This document shows, one piece after another, positions 13,411 through 27,699 of a stretch of DNA of 64,000 nucleotides (positions are counted from its first letter, which is position 1; each line of letters opens with the position of its first letter). Under the pieces are notes generated by a model that worked only from the letters and a program-made list of their open reading frames with translations, searched no databases and was not told the DNA's origin. The stretch is from contig CALIMB010000040.1 in assembly GCA_938028665.1 (NCBI GenBank), positions 1-64,000 on the forward strand, in the 5' to 3' direction. This DNA comes from an uncultured Thermomicrobium sp. GTDB taxonomy: Bacteria; Chloroflexota; Chloroflexia; Thermomicrobiales; Thermomicrobiaceae. The position numbers were made by a program, and so were the translations under genes.

Positions 13411-15306
13411 ATGACGCGGCAGACTTTCGTTATCGGGACCGCAGGACACGTCGACCACGGTAAATCGACCCTAGTTAAGGCACTGACCGGGATCGATCCT
13501 GATCGCCTTCGCGAGGAAAAAGAGCGTGAGATGACCATCGACCTCGGGTTCGCCTGGATGACACTTCCAAGCGGTCGACGCTTGAGCATCGTTGATGTCC
13601 CCGGGCACGAGCGATTCATTAAGAACATGCTCGCTGGCGTAGGTGGCTTTGACGCTGCATTGTTCGTCGTAGCCGCCGACGAGGGGCCAATGCCGCAAAC
13701 ACGCGAGCACCTGGCCATCATTGACCTCTTGGAGATCCGGCACGGAGTCGTTGCGCTTACCAAGCGAGATCTCGTTGATGACGACTGGCTCGAGCTTGTT
13801 CAGGCTGAGGTCGAGGAACTCTTGCGGGGTACTACCCTGGAAGGAGTGCCGATCGTCCCTGTTGCAGCCGTCAGCGGACACGGACTCGCTGAGCTTGTCG
13901 ACGCCATCGACCGCGTCCTAGACCACGTGCCTCCACATGCCAGTGGTGGACGACCTCGTCTGGCGATCGACCGGGTCTTCACTATGTCCGGTTTCGGCAC
14001 AATCGTCACCGGTACATTGCGAGATGGCGAACTTGAAGTAGGTCAAGAGATTGAAATTCTCCCGCGTGGCCTCCGCGCCCGAGTGCGCGGCCTACAGAGC
14101 CATCGGAGACGAGTCGAGCGGGCGTTACCAGGGTCCCGGACAGCCGTGAACCTGAGCGGAGTCGAGGTCGATGAAATTGAGCGTGGTGACGTCCTTACCG
14201 TTCCTGGATGGCTCAAACCAACACTGTTGCTTGACGCGCGGCTTCGCATGGTACGGGATGCTCCAGCTCCGCTGGAGCAAAACGATGAGGTCGATTTCTT
14301 TGTGGGCACAAGCGAGACGCTCGCCCGCGTGACACTGCTCGACGCCGAACGCCTTGAACCTGGTCAGAGCGGCTGGGTGCAGCTGCGTCTTCAGGAACCG
14401 ATTGTTGCGCTCCGCGGTGACCGGTTCATTATTCGCAGGCCTTCCCCGAGTTCGACGCTCGGTGGTGGAATCATCGTGGACACGGCACCGCGCCGACACC
14501 GTCGTTTCCGTCCAGAGGTTATTCAGGCGTTGGAGGCGCTCGCTTCCGGTGACCCGGAAACGATCCTGCTGCAAGCACTCGAAGGCGACCATATCCTGGA
14601 GTGGCGCGAACTTTTGCAGCGGGCAGGTCTCGACGAGTCGACCGCGAGAGAGGTTATCCAACGCGTCATTGCGGCAGGGCATGTGCTCGTTCTTGACGGT
14701 GGTGACGGGCCACTCAGTCCGACAACACCCCTGGTCCGTCGTGAGGGAGCAGAGCGACTGAGTGCCCGACTCTTGGAATTACTCGAGGACTACCACGCAC
14801 GTTTTCCGCTGCGACGTGGGCTACCCCGCGAGATGGCTCGCAGTCGCCTGAGCCTCACCCAGCGTGCCTTTGATCGTCTTATTCATCGCCTCGCCAACAC
14901 CGGCCAACTCGTAGAAGAAGACGAAATCTTGCGCCTTCCCAAACACCGCATCCGACTCGATGCAGAGCAAGAGAGCCGTGCGCGCGCCTACGAAGCAGCG
15001 CTCCGACGCGAACCATTCACGCCACCAGCGCCAGCTGACTATGGACTGGACAGTGAGCTTGTGCAGGCCCTCGCTGACCTCGGTCGGGTCGTGCGTATCA
15101 CCGAGGATGTTGTCTTCGCACCGGAAGCCTGGGAAACCATCCAGCAGCGTGTTCTTGCGCTCATCGATGCACATGGGAGTGTCACTCTGGCTCAGGTACG
15201 AGACGAACTCAGCACCAGCCGAAAGTACGCCCAAGCCATCCTTGAGTACCTCGATCAGCGTCGTATCACGCGGCGGGTTGGCGATGCACGAGTTCGGTAC
15301 GCCTGA
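13411..15306 (+). CDS. selB: Selenocysteine-specific translation elongation factor
   Basis: Delivers Sec-tRNA(Sec) to UGA codons marked by a SECIS hairpin. The protein has 631 residues, the normal bacterial SelB length. The GTPase domain shows G1 (GHVDHGKS, residues 11-18), G2/Thr region (EREMTIDLGFAW), G3 (DVPGHE), G4 (TKRD) and a G5-like VAAVSG. Beta-barrel domains II and III follow (IDRVFTMSGFGTIVTGTL is characteristic of SelB rather than EF-Tu). From about residue 370 come the winged-helix repeats that bind SECIS RNA, ending QVRDELSTSRKYAQAILEYLD. No selA, selD or tRNA(Sec) was found in the window. A probable client gene lies at 25118-25816. Confidence 0.96.
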   Translation: MTRQTFVIGTAGHVDHGKSTLVKALTGIDPDRLREEKEREMTIDLGFAWMTLPSGRRLSIVDVPGHERFIKNMLAGVGGFDAALFVVAADEGPMPQTREHLAIIDLLEIRHGVVALTKRDLVDDDWLELVQAEVEELLRGTTLEGVPIVPVAAVSGHGLAELVDAIDRVLDHVPPHASGGRPRLAIDRVFTMSGFGTIVTGTLRDGELEVGQEIEILPRGLRARVRGLQSHRRRVERALPGSRTAVNLSGVEVDEIERGDVLTVPGWLKPTLLLDARLRMVRDAPAPLEQNDEVDFFVGTSETLARVTLLDAERLEPGQSGWVQLRLQEPIVALRGDRFIIRRPSPSSTLGGGIIVDTAPRRHRRFRPEVIQALEALASGDPETILLQALEGDHILEWRELLQRAGLDESTAREVIQRVIAAGHVLVLDGGDGPLSPTTPLVRREGAERLSARLLELLEDYHARFPLRRGLPREMARSRLSLTQRAFDRLIHRLANTGQLVEEDEILRLPKHRIRLDAEQESRARAYEAALRREPFTPPAPADYGLDSELVQALADLGRVVRITEDVVFAPEAWETIQQRVLALIDAHGSVTLAQVRDELSTSRKYAQAILEYLDQRRITRRVGDARVRYA

Positions 15307-23303: not shown

Positions 23304-23353
23304 AGGATTGGTCGAAGTCGCTGAAAGACCGGCACCAACCACCGGAATCACGA

Positions 23354-23492
23354 CCTTCTCCCATCCGGACTATACCGTCGGCCCCGGAATTGGCGCCGCT
23401 GGCGCCTCACCGGATCCTGCGGCCATCGGCCGCTCGCGGGCTGTACCGCCGGTCGGGAATTGGCGCTTCGCGCCTCACCCTGCCCCGAAGGT
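23354..23492 (-). promoter_or_regulatory. FMN riboswitch (RFN element)
   Basis: The conserved blocks appear in order on the minus strand: CTTCGGGGCAGGGTGAGG, AATTCCCGACCGGCGGT, AGCCCGCGAGC, GGATCCGGTGAGG, AATTCCGGGGCCGACGGT and ATAGTCCGGATGGGAGAAGG. The variable hairpins between blocks are short and GC-rich (GGCGCGAAGCGCC, GGCGCCAGCGGCGCC). It controls the complete rib operon 19671-23231. Confidence 0.98.
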
Positions 23493-23504
23493 CTTGCATT
23501 GCCA

Positions 23505-23625: not shown

Positions 23626-25113
23626 TTAAGGCACTTCCAGCCGATCCACCTGACCGAGACGTTGCAGCCAACGCTCCACCCACTGCGCGGCCCAGTACCC
23701 GCACAGGCCATGGACGCCACCTCCAGGCGGTGTCGCCGCGCTGCAAAGAAAGAGTGCTGAGTCAGGAGTGCGATACGGTGGCCACGGCAACCACGAGGGA
23801 CGGGCAAACAGTTGCCAGAACGTCGGCCATCCAGCAGTCAGATCGCCCCCCACAAGGTTCGGATTCTGCAGCTCCAATTGACGCGGGCCCCATACCCGAC
23901 GAGCCAGTATGCGCGAACGGAACCCGGGTGCGAACCGTTCCACCTGGCGCTCAATGACTTCCGTCGCGTCTCCGTCCCAGCCATTGGGTACATGACAGTA
24001 GCCCCAAACGACAGCCAACCCAGGCAACGTACGGCTCGGGTCAAATTGGCTCGGCTGGACGAGAATCACGAACGGTCGCTCCGGCATTCGGCCATTCACG
24101 ACTGCATGTTCGGCTGCCACAATCTCCTCCGCTGTCCCCCCAAGATGAACGGTCGCTGCCAGGCCACACTCTGCAGCTCGCCAGGGTATCCCGTCGCGGA
24201 GCACCCAGTCGATCTTAAAGACCCCAGGACCATGCCGGTAACGCGCCAGCCGCCGCCGATACCAGCTGGGCCAGCGTTGACCAGCAAGTACAAGCGCATT
24301 TTTCGGAACAAGATCGAGCAGTACTGCGCGAGCTGGTGGAATCTCGGTGAGCCGATGCAAGGGAAATCCGCTGTAGAGTCTTCCGCCCCGGACCGTGAGT
24401 TCATCGATCAGGTGGGCGGTCAGCTGCGCCGTGCCGCCCTCGACCAGTGGCCAACCGACCAGATGCGCGCAAAGCGCGAGCACCAGGGCAAACGCAGCTG
24501 AGGGCGCACGTTCGAGCGGTAGCGTGCTGTGCGCGGCAAGCCCGGCAATCAACGACCGTGCTCGTGCGGTGCGAAAGTGTTGGCCCAGATCAGTTGCCGA
24601 GCGGGTACCCTCCCGAGCGAACCGTAGGAATGCACTCCAAGGCACGGACCATCCTGGGAAACAGAGCACTCCAGGTGCTGGGGAAAGCAACGTCGCAAGG
24701 AGCGCATGGCCATGCTTGAGGAGCGGCTGAACAAGCGCGCGGTACCTCCCGCGATCCTCCCCGAGTTGGTCCGCGGTACGCTCAAGATCTTGCCAGAGTA
24801 AGACTGCGCTTCCGTCAGTGAATGGATGAGCAAGCGCTGCCGGGGAGCGGACCCAGGCTACGCGTTCTACCAGTCCAATGGCACGGAAGAAAGGGGAGAC
24901 TGCTGCGAGTGGCACTACTGTCGCGCAGTGATCGTGTTGGCAGCCAGGCACGATGCTGGCATCCGTCCGCAGCCCTCCCCCGATCTGTTCCTGTCCCTCA
25001 AGGACGAGCACCCGCCGCCGACTACGCGCAAGCGTAACCGCTGCCGCGAGCCCGTTTGGGCCAGAGCCGACGACAACCACATCCCATCGACCCGCTGGCC
25101 TGAGGGGGGACAT
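23626..25113 (-). CDS. FAD-dependent oxidoreductase of the phytoene-dehydrogenase-like family
   Basis: A 495-residue flavoprotein. The N-terminal Rossmann motif VVVVGSGPNGLAAAVTLARS and the following VLVLEGQEQIGGGLRT bind FAD. A C-terminal motif near GGDLTAGW and the tail GVHGLCGYWAAQW complete the site, as in CrtI-like and NAD(P)/FAD-dependent amine-oxidase-fold proteins. No other carotenoid gene is nearby, so a desaturase role is not supported. The ATG at 25113 is four bases after the selenoprotein stop and fits the family start. The frame is open to 25221 inside the upstream gene. It probably forms an operon with the selenoprotein. Confidence 0.85.
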   Translation of the reverse strand: MSPLRPAGRWDVVVVGSGPNGLAAAVTLARSRRRVLVLEGQEQIGGGLRTDASIVPGCQHDHCATVVPLAAVSPFFRAIGLVERVAWVRSPAALAHPFTDGSAVLLWQDLERTADQLGEDRGRYRALVQPLLKHGHALLATLLSPAPGVLCFPGWSVPWSAFLRFAREGTRSATDLGQHFRTARARSLIAGLAAHSTLPLERAPSAAFALVLALCAHLVGWPLVEGGTAQLTAHLIDELTVRGGRLYSGFPLHRLTEIPPARAVLLDLVPKNALVLAGQRWPSWYRRRLARYRHGPGVFKIDWVLRDGIPWRAAECGLAATVHLGGTAEEIVAAEHAVVNGRMPERPFVILVQPSQFDPSRTLPGLAVVWGYCHVPNGWDGDATEVIERQVERFAPGFRSRILARRVWGPRQLELQNPNLVGGDLTAGWPTFWQLFARPSWLPWPPYRTPDSALFLCSAATPPGGGVHGLCGYWAAQWVERWLQRLGQVDRLEVP

Positions 25114-25117
25114 TACT

Positions 25118-25816
25118 TCAGCCTTGTGATGACCCCTCCGTGTCCTGCCGACCTGCAACCGACTCCACCATGGCGACGAAGGCCGCTTCCGGCCGTGCTC
25201 CTTCAAACTCGAGCGACTCATTCATGACCACTTTGGGCACCGCGAAGACCCGATACCGCTGTGCCAGATGCGGGAACTCACTTACTTCGACGACATCCGC
25301 GGTGACCTTCTCGCTCTCAATCGCCATCATGTGCGCCAACCTGGCGACACTCGGACAGTATGGTCAGGTGGGGGTGACAAAGACTTTGATATGAACCGGT
25401 TGGACAAGCTTGGTCAGCGTCTCACGACTCAAAGGGCTGAGTTCCGTGGTGCCACGCGAGACGTCGATCAAGTCCTCAATCAGTGTCGCAAACTCGTAAC
25501 CAGCGGGGACACCGATGAATCGCACCGTCCCCTTATTGTGGCCCTTCAGCAAGATCGCCGGGATCTCTTCGACGCCAGCCTGCTTCGCCAACTCGGCATC
25601 TTGCAGGAGATCGTGCATCTCCAATGTCAGCTTATCGGAGAGCGCAGCCACTTCTTCAAGAAGTTGGTTGGTCTCGCGGCAGGTGGCGCACTCATACCCC
25701 GGAATGCGAATCTGGGTAACGCGCTGGGTGAAAAGAACAATAGTGACAGGATCCCGCAGGCGTTCGGCAAACACCTGGCGCAGGTATTCCTGGTCTGCTG
25801 GCGAGAGAATTGGCAT
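25118..25816 (-). CDS. Selenocysteine-containing protein disulfide oxidoreductase (Sec at residue 151)
   Basis: Thiol-disulfide (selenol) oxidoreductase of the two-thioredoxin-fold PDO family of thermophiles. It has 232 residues if the TGA at 25364-25366 is read as selenocysteine. The N-terminal fold has a CxxC site in GYECATCRET (about residues 41-50). The C-terminal fold begins HIKVFVTPT, then TGA, then PYCP, exactly at the first cysteine of the family's CPYC motif. The same frame continues through ARLAHMMAIESEKV, the cis-proline motif VFAVPKVVMNE and a normal C-terminus at 25118. A bacterial-type SECIS follows the TGA. The start at 25816 has GAAGGGGG upstream. The alternative, a nonsense pseudogene, is unlikely given the exact position, the SECIS and selB at 13411. 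Confidence 0.9.
25331..25350 (-). promoter_or_regulatory. Bacterial SECIS element
   Basis: On the minus strand, starting 14 bases after the TGA: GUG, a bulged U, CGCC, loop AGGUU, GGCG, CAC. All seven stem positions pair perfectly (three below and four above the bulge). The bulged U and the GGU in the loop are the features that SelB reads in the E. coli fdhF SECIS, whose loop is AGGUCU. Confidence 0.85.
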
Positions 25817-25920
25817 TAGGTTCCCCCTTCCCGTGTCACACCGTTCCTGGCCGAAGCGTAAACGATCAGGCGCTCTCCTGCCATGTCACTCGTGTGATAG
25901 GATCGTGCCTGGAGGTGAAC

Positions 25921-26763: not shown

Positions 26764-27663
26764 TCAGTGCACTTGCAAACGGTACTGGAGGAGGAAGTGC
26801 CACAGAGCATCGGCCGCAGCCGAAACTGGCCGTCCGGCACGCCGCACCAGTGACCACCAGCGCCGCACGGGAAACCCCTGAACATCGAGAATGACGAGAC
26901 GCTCCGTTTCCAGTTCGAGCCCAATGGCGTCACGTGGCATGATGGCCACACCGAGATCCGCGGCAACAGCCTGCTTAATCGCACCGTTGCTTCGCAGCTC
27001 CATCGCCACACGAATGGAGCATCCCGCTTCCGCGAAGATGCGTTCGGTATCAGCTCGCGTCCCCGAGCCGATCTCCCGCACCAGAAACGGCTCGCGGGCA
27101 ATCTCCTCAAGCGAGATCTGACGGCGACGCGCCAACGGATGGCGAGGTGAGGCGATGACAACAAGTTCATTTGGCAGGAACTGAGCGATCTCCAAGTCCT
27201 GTGGATCCTCGATCAATCCCATGATGGCAAGATCAGCATCCCCACTGAGCAGCCGCTGGTGAACAGCAAAGCGATTGAGCACATCGAGCGAGAGTTCAAC
27301 ACCAGGATAGGCGCGGTGAAAGGCACCGAGCGCTTTGGGTACGACGTAGATGCCTGCCGTCGTGCTGGCGGCCACGCGCACCTGACCACGTTGGGCGCAA
27401 TGCAGCTCCCGCATCGCGCTCAATGCCTCGTCCAACAGATCAAGCATCCGCTCAGCATAAGGTAGAAGGTGGCGCCCTGCCTCGGTTAGCTCCACCCCCC
27501 GCCCGGTGCGCTGGAAAAGTGGAACATTCAGGAGCTGTTCCAGCGCCTTAATCTGGGCCGAGACAGCTGGCTGGCTGACGACGAGTTCCTCAGCAGCCCG
27601 CGAGAAGCTGCGGTGACGCGCCACTGCCCGAAATACTTGCAGCTGCCGCAAGCTCACGTCCAT
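26764..27663 (-). CDS. LysR-family transcriptional regulator
   Basis: A 299-residue activator or repressor. The N-terminal winged helix (LRQLQVFRAVARHRSFSRAAEELVVSQPAVSAQIKALE) is followed by the two-lobed effector domain. ATG 27663 is preceded by GGGGGAAT. It is divergent from aceA with about 320 bases between. By the usual LysR habit it may regulate itself and the aceA gene. A palindrome ATATG-CC-CATAT at 27709-27720, inside the aceA promoter spacer, is a candidate site. The effector is unknown. Confidence 0.9.
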   Translation of the reverse strand: MDVSLRQLQVFRAVARHRSFSRAAEELVVSQPAVSAQIKALEQLLNVPLFQRTGRGVELTEAGRHLLPYAERMLDLLDEALSAMRELHCAQRGQVRVAASTTAGIYVVPKALGAFHRAYPGVELSLDVLNRFAVHQRLLSGDADLAIMGLIEDPQDLEIAQFLPNELVVIASPRHPLARRRQISLEEIAREPFLVREIGSGTRADTERIFAEAGCSIRVAMELRSNGAIKQAVAADLGVAIMPRDAIGLELETERLVILDVQGFPVRRWWSLVRRAGRPVSAAADALWHFLLQYRLQVH

Positions 27664-27699
27664 ATAGATTCCCCCTATGCGAAGCATCACAAAGTGCTA

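Follow-up and report, generated by a model that had tools for sequence, protein, structure and literature searches.

A Thermomicrobium member of the two-domain protein disulfide oxidoreductase family with a predicted selenocysteine at its C-terminal site, and its relatives across Chloroflexota

Selenocysteine (Sec) forms of the TIGR02187 family of two-domain protein disulfide oxidoreductases (PDOs) have been known since 2006 or earlier. A selenoproteome survey of that year reported a "homolog of AhpF, N-terminal domain" selenoprotein in Carboxydothermus and Symbiobacterium (PMC1794560). A 2022 list of prokaryotic selenoproteins includes an AhpF N-terminal domain homolog (Grx-like, TIGR02187, UxxC; PMC9312934), and a 2026 review lists the TIGR02187 UxxC family, notes it also in Asgard archaea, and classes it as a high-confidence prediction that is not experimentally verified (PMC13188914). 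NCBIfam now names the model PDO_seleno_TRX. These sources overturn one suggestion of the first-pass annotation of the locus described here, namely that no Sec members of the two-fold family had been described; its core reading, a two-domain PDO with selenocysteine as residue 151, stands. Chloroflexota members of the Sec family are not discussed in these three papers, and among the non-subscription papers listed for selenoproteins with Thermomicrobium or with Chloroflexota, no title or abstract describes a Sec-PDO there. The Thermomicrobium gene is a further member of a known family.

The gene lies in a 64,000-nt stretch of DNA (the window) from an uncultured Thermomicrobium sp. whose genome is 99.3% complete in 110 contigs; its nearest named relatives are HRbin28 and Thermomicrobium sp. 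SKW109. The PDO frame translates as MPILSPADQEYLRQ...VFVTPT-(TGA)-PYCPSVARLAHMM...TEGSSQG; one internal TGA, flanked by VFVTPT and PYCP, interrupts it, and 81 further residues follow up to the stop (Table 1). It carries an N-terminal CATC at residues 43-46, a C-terminal U151-P-Y-C154, and a VP cis-proline motif within AVPK. In an alignment with Pyrococcus PDO, the Cys of the CPYC motif falls under the TGA. The in-frame TGA at residue 151 is a real feature and coincides with the leading Cys of the C-terminal CPYC. Under translation table 11, the region yields two open reading frames, of 150 aa (25364-25816) and of 73 aa from a TTG (25118-25339): standard gene calling breaks the gene in two, and the redox centre is lost. 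The first-pass annotation had described the once-interrupted frame, the TGA on the catalytic Cys, the 81-residue continuation with its cis-proline motif, and the split by standard callers, and we reproduced all four.

Table 1. Features of the PDO locus and of the wider window
Feature	Position	Strand	Evidence or remark
Sec-containing protein disulfide oxidoreductase (PDO) gene	25118..25816	-	232 aa; translation
PDO terminal stop, TGA	25118-25120	-	
Internal TGA, taken as selenocysteine U151, at the head of the C-terminal CxxC	25364..25366	-	
Predicted bacterial SECIS hairpin, GUG-U-CGCC-AGGUU-GGCG-CAC	25331..25350	-	MFE fold and comparative evidence
Shine-Dalgarno-like purine stretch GAAGGGGGAA, directly upstream of the PDO ATG	25820..25830 (approximate)	-	read from sequence
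FAD-dependent oxidoreductase (phytoene desaturase/CrtO-like)	23626..25113	-	Pfam NAD_binding_8, E=1.1e-10
LysR-family regulator	26764..27690	-	NF040786, 225.7 bits vs cut-off 250
selB, selenocysteine-specific elongation factor	13411..15306	+	TIGR00475, 350.3 bits vs cut-off 242.25

The joined protein matches TIGR02187 over positions 3-207 of 209, above the curated cut-off (E=8.5e-78; 260.5 bits, cut-off 185), and also matches Pfam Thioredoxin_3. The Pyrococcus PDO structures 1j08 and 1a8l align with it end to end (E about 3e-42), which, with the two CxxC-type sites, identifies two thioredoxin folds by sequence. The AhpF-type models TIGR03143 and TIGR03140 match far under their own cut-offs (E=8e-26 and 1e-17). 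Taking the sequence evidence together, we are highly confident that UGA codon 151 of this two-domain TIGR02187 PDO is decoded as selenocysteine, with U-P-Y-C as the likely redox centre. This reading is supported by the position of the TGA, which coincides with the catalytic Cys, by the complete Sec apparatus of the genome, by Cys orthologues in the same column, and by covariation in a bacterial-type SECIS hairpin just downstream.

To place the TGA among homologues, we ran a profile search over 400 genomes of the phylum, 98 of which had TIGR02187 above the cut-off, and extracted and aligned 114 full or near-full PDO loci. About 54 loci, from distinct Chloroflexota genomes, have exactly one internal TGA, always in the column of the first Cys of the C-terminal motif. 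Cysteine fills that column in about 56 homologous loci (approximately 110 with TGA or Cys in total), so the in-frame UGA stands where homologues have Cys; these are the Cys-151 homologues in other Chloroflexota that the first-pass annotation had proposed as a check. A single divergent locus of the 114 (L075) is without the C-terminal motif. The same column is TGA in related Thermomicrobium genomes (L024 and L058 in HRbin28, L025 in SKW109, and L059). Since the TGA recurs in this column in the related Thermomicrobium and in about 54 Chloroflexota loci, and never elsewhere in the protein, a chance TGA is ruled out.

On a 111-row protein tree built with the Sec/Cys residue masked, the Sec/Cys label has to change 12 times, at least 10 of them on well-supported branches and one inside the window's genus, where L058, L059, and L025 have TGA and L060 has TGC. 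Sec-PDO is common across Chloroflexota, and its repeated switches between Sec and Cys, some between closely related pairs, make it a good natural system for testing what drives the gain or loss of Sec. The N-terminal CxxC has been lost (TDSG, STTG, GEYS) while the C-terminal U/CxxC is kept in several Sec forms (L107, L109, L110, L113, and L114) and several Cys forms (L071-L073 and L129-L136). This pattern suggests that the C-terminal U/CxxC is the essential site of PDO.

The genome encodes the complete bacterial set for selenoprotein synthesis: a tRNA-Sec (75.5 bits, TCA anticodon), SelA on contig C14 and SelD on contig C19, both over their cut-offs, and the SelB of the window, which the first-pass annotation had already picked out. 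That annotation had let its reading hang on tRNA(Sec), selA, and selD being present in the genome; all three are, and the reading stands. SelD is itself interrupted by an in-frame TGA at its catalytic residue, SCAG-U-AGK (L019; G000:C19:10584-11519, minus strand). A GCGGGG...CCCCGC hairpin sits right behind that TGA. We also considered a possible second thioredoxin-like Sec protein on contig C72, with one TGA, and rejected it: the translation gives a short protein with CHGC, and the TGA falls past the domain, where a plain stop is the simplest reading. Across the phylum, SelA was matched in all TGA genomes with a completeness of 90% or more (in G232 by a partial hit), and SelA is absent from several Cys genomes (for example, G166, G230, G316, G330, and G395). 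No SelA over the cut-off was found in three TGA genomes of 76-88% completeness (G029, G212, and G329), presumably owing to missing sequence. Co-occurrence of SelA and Sec-PDO adds modest weight only, because SelA is so common in the phylum (320 of 400 genomes over the cut-off).

The SECIS element of E. coli fdhF has a bulged U and an apical loop containing GG, and the predicted PDO hairpin resembles it in both respects: it lies just 3' of the UGA, has a bulged U in the stem, and its apical loop, AGGUU, begins 21 nt past the TGA. The minimum free energy fold of positions 25326-25366 is exactly this hairpin, but its energy is by itself ordinary (z -0.93). We therefore set folding energy aside as uninformative and relied on covariation and on comparison with Cys forms. 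At a fixed offset past the codon, 38 of the 55 distinct TGA forms carry the motif GCCAGNNTGGC, versus 2 of 54 Cys forms, counts that kinship inflates. Among these 38 TGA forms, the wobble bases of the two flanking codons pair in 37 (as GC, CG, AU, GU, or UG), a number reached by no shuffle, though likewise inflated by relatedness among the sequences. Within the same 38, Ala is always encoded by GCC and Arg always by AGG; AGG makes up 3% of Arg codons in the window's genes. Within the genus, the Cys orthologue L060 has lost the hairpin (-3.3 vs -12.3 kcal/mol). Tree-based independent pairs that differ in the hairpin agree with TGA in 4 cases and disagree in 0-1 (p 0.125), a trend in the expected direction from too few pairs to reach significance. 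The remaining 17 of the 55 TGA forms have a different hairpin, nearer the UGA, and thus no one SECIS model fits all TGA forms. Such a second class, with its apical loop about 16-17 nt past the TGA rather than 21 nt, was seen in L045, L078, L080, L081, L084, and L089, as well as in L104-L106, L111, L112, and L117-L120.

These data bear on three other explanations of the TGA. It might be a sequencing or assembly error for TGC or TGT, or a recent nonsense mutation that leaves a pseudogene ending at residue 150; TGA and TGC differ by one base, and L060 of the same genus does have TGC. Yet the same TGA is present in the independently assembled L024, L025, L059, and L061-L064, where the 81 codons downstream are also kept (whole-protein identity 87-93% in L024 and L025), and the hairpin is conserved. 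Such conservation in practice refutes error or mutation, which we regard as extremely improbable. Less improbable, but still very unlikely, is that the UGA is mostly a true stop, that the 150-aa product with its CATC is functional, for example under selenium limitation, and that readthrough is minor. UGA recoding is generally incomplete, as known for E. coli, with an efficiency of 30-40% (PMC4513850), and the N-terminal domain does carry its own CxxC. Against this, the C-terminal domain is as strongly conserved as the rest of PDO, and some relatives that lose the N-terminal CxxC (to TDSG or STTG) retain U-x-x-C.

Reassignment of TGA genome-wide, for example to Trp, or its suppression by another tRNA, found no supporting point and has a negligible probability in our estimate: homologues have Cys rather than Trp at the site, the tRNA-Sec of the genome has a TCA anticodon, and TGA is the ordinary terminator of 10 of the 15 window genes sampled, which contradicts any genome-wide change of meaning.

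With selenocysteine as the preferred reading, a mechanism can be proposed. PDO would be, by homology, a cytosolic two-domain oxidoreductase of the glutaredoxin/thioredoxin fold. Codon 151 would be decoded by tRNA-Sec and SelB, the latter recruited by the hairpin about 13-33 nt past the UGA in the mRNA. The U151 selenolate of the C-terminal U-P-Y-C may then attack disulfides, Cys154 may resolve the resulting selenenylsulfide, and the N-terminal CATC could serve as an electron relay or as a second site. The sequence itself shows the reading frame, its alignment, the Sec machinery, the Cys orthologues, and the covarying hairpin; Sec insertion, this redox chemistry, and any substrates or electron donor are inferred.

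The FAD oxidoreductase gene, whose probable start is the ATG at 25113, begins a few bases past the PDO stop, and the same gene order is found in L024 and L025. Its product is a candidate operon partner of PDO, although any role for a phytoene-desaturase-type enzyme with PDO is speculative. Members of the PDO family are expected to act as disulfide reductases or isomerases with thioredoxin reductase as their donor. The genome yielded no thioredoxin reductase scoring above the TIGR01292 cut-off: the best match (142.7 vs 343 bits) is an FNR-like flavoprotein on contig C22 without a CxxC, and further matches include lipoamide dehydrogenase-like and MerA-like proteins, both named by inspection rather than by family search. 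In Thermomicrobium, where a canonical NADPH thioredoxin reductase seems to be missing, Sec-PDO might be the main cytosolic disulfide reductant, fed by an unusual donor, perhaps the downstream FAD oxidoreductase; we consider this unlikely, but if true, thiol reduction would depend on selenium and do without thioredoxin reductase.

The genes around the Chloroflexota PDO loci showed no conserved arrangement particular to Sec forms. The best NCBIfam match of the LysR regulator is "selenium metabolism-associated LysR", under the cut-off, and it is linked to the PDO gene by position alone. LysR regulators near the PDO gene occur in Thermomicrobiales. An ECF-type sigma factor adjoins PDO in about 26 other Chloroflexota loci (21 of the 26 are Cys forms), and a zinc-finger-like anti-sigma gene in 22 (18 of them Cys forms); these loci include L030, L032, L035, L036, L071-L073, and L129-L135, and such neighbours suggest a redox-responsive regulon. 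Elsewhere in the window, an FMN riboswitch (23349-23496, minus strand; 80.1 bits) lies upstream of ribD, riboflavin synthase, and ribBA.

Among described systems, the closest is the TIGR02187 UxxC selenoprotein family itself (type example ABB15282.1), which shares with the Thermomicrobium PDO the NCBIfam model, the UxxC motif, and one Sec per protein; it is listed for Carboxydothermus and Symbiobacterium and so differs in host group. The Pyrococcus PDO (1a8l and 1j08) and the Aquifex-type PDO (2ywm and 2ayt) likewise consist of two tandem thioredoxin-fold units with two CxxC sites. Where Pyrococcus has CQYC and CPYC, Thermomicrobium has CATC and UPYC, with Sec in place of the leading Cys at the C-terminal site, and it has an insertion of about 8 residues ahead of the N-terminal CxxC. 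The N-terminal domain of AhpF is a homologous two-fold module, whereas the Thermomicrobium PDO is free-standing, without a fused flavoprotein reductase. Finally, selenoprotein glutaredoxins and thioredoxins (UxxC) also have Sec at the N-terminal position of CxxC in a thioredoxin fold, but they are single-domain proteins, unlike the two-domain PDO of Thermomicrobium.
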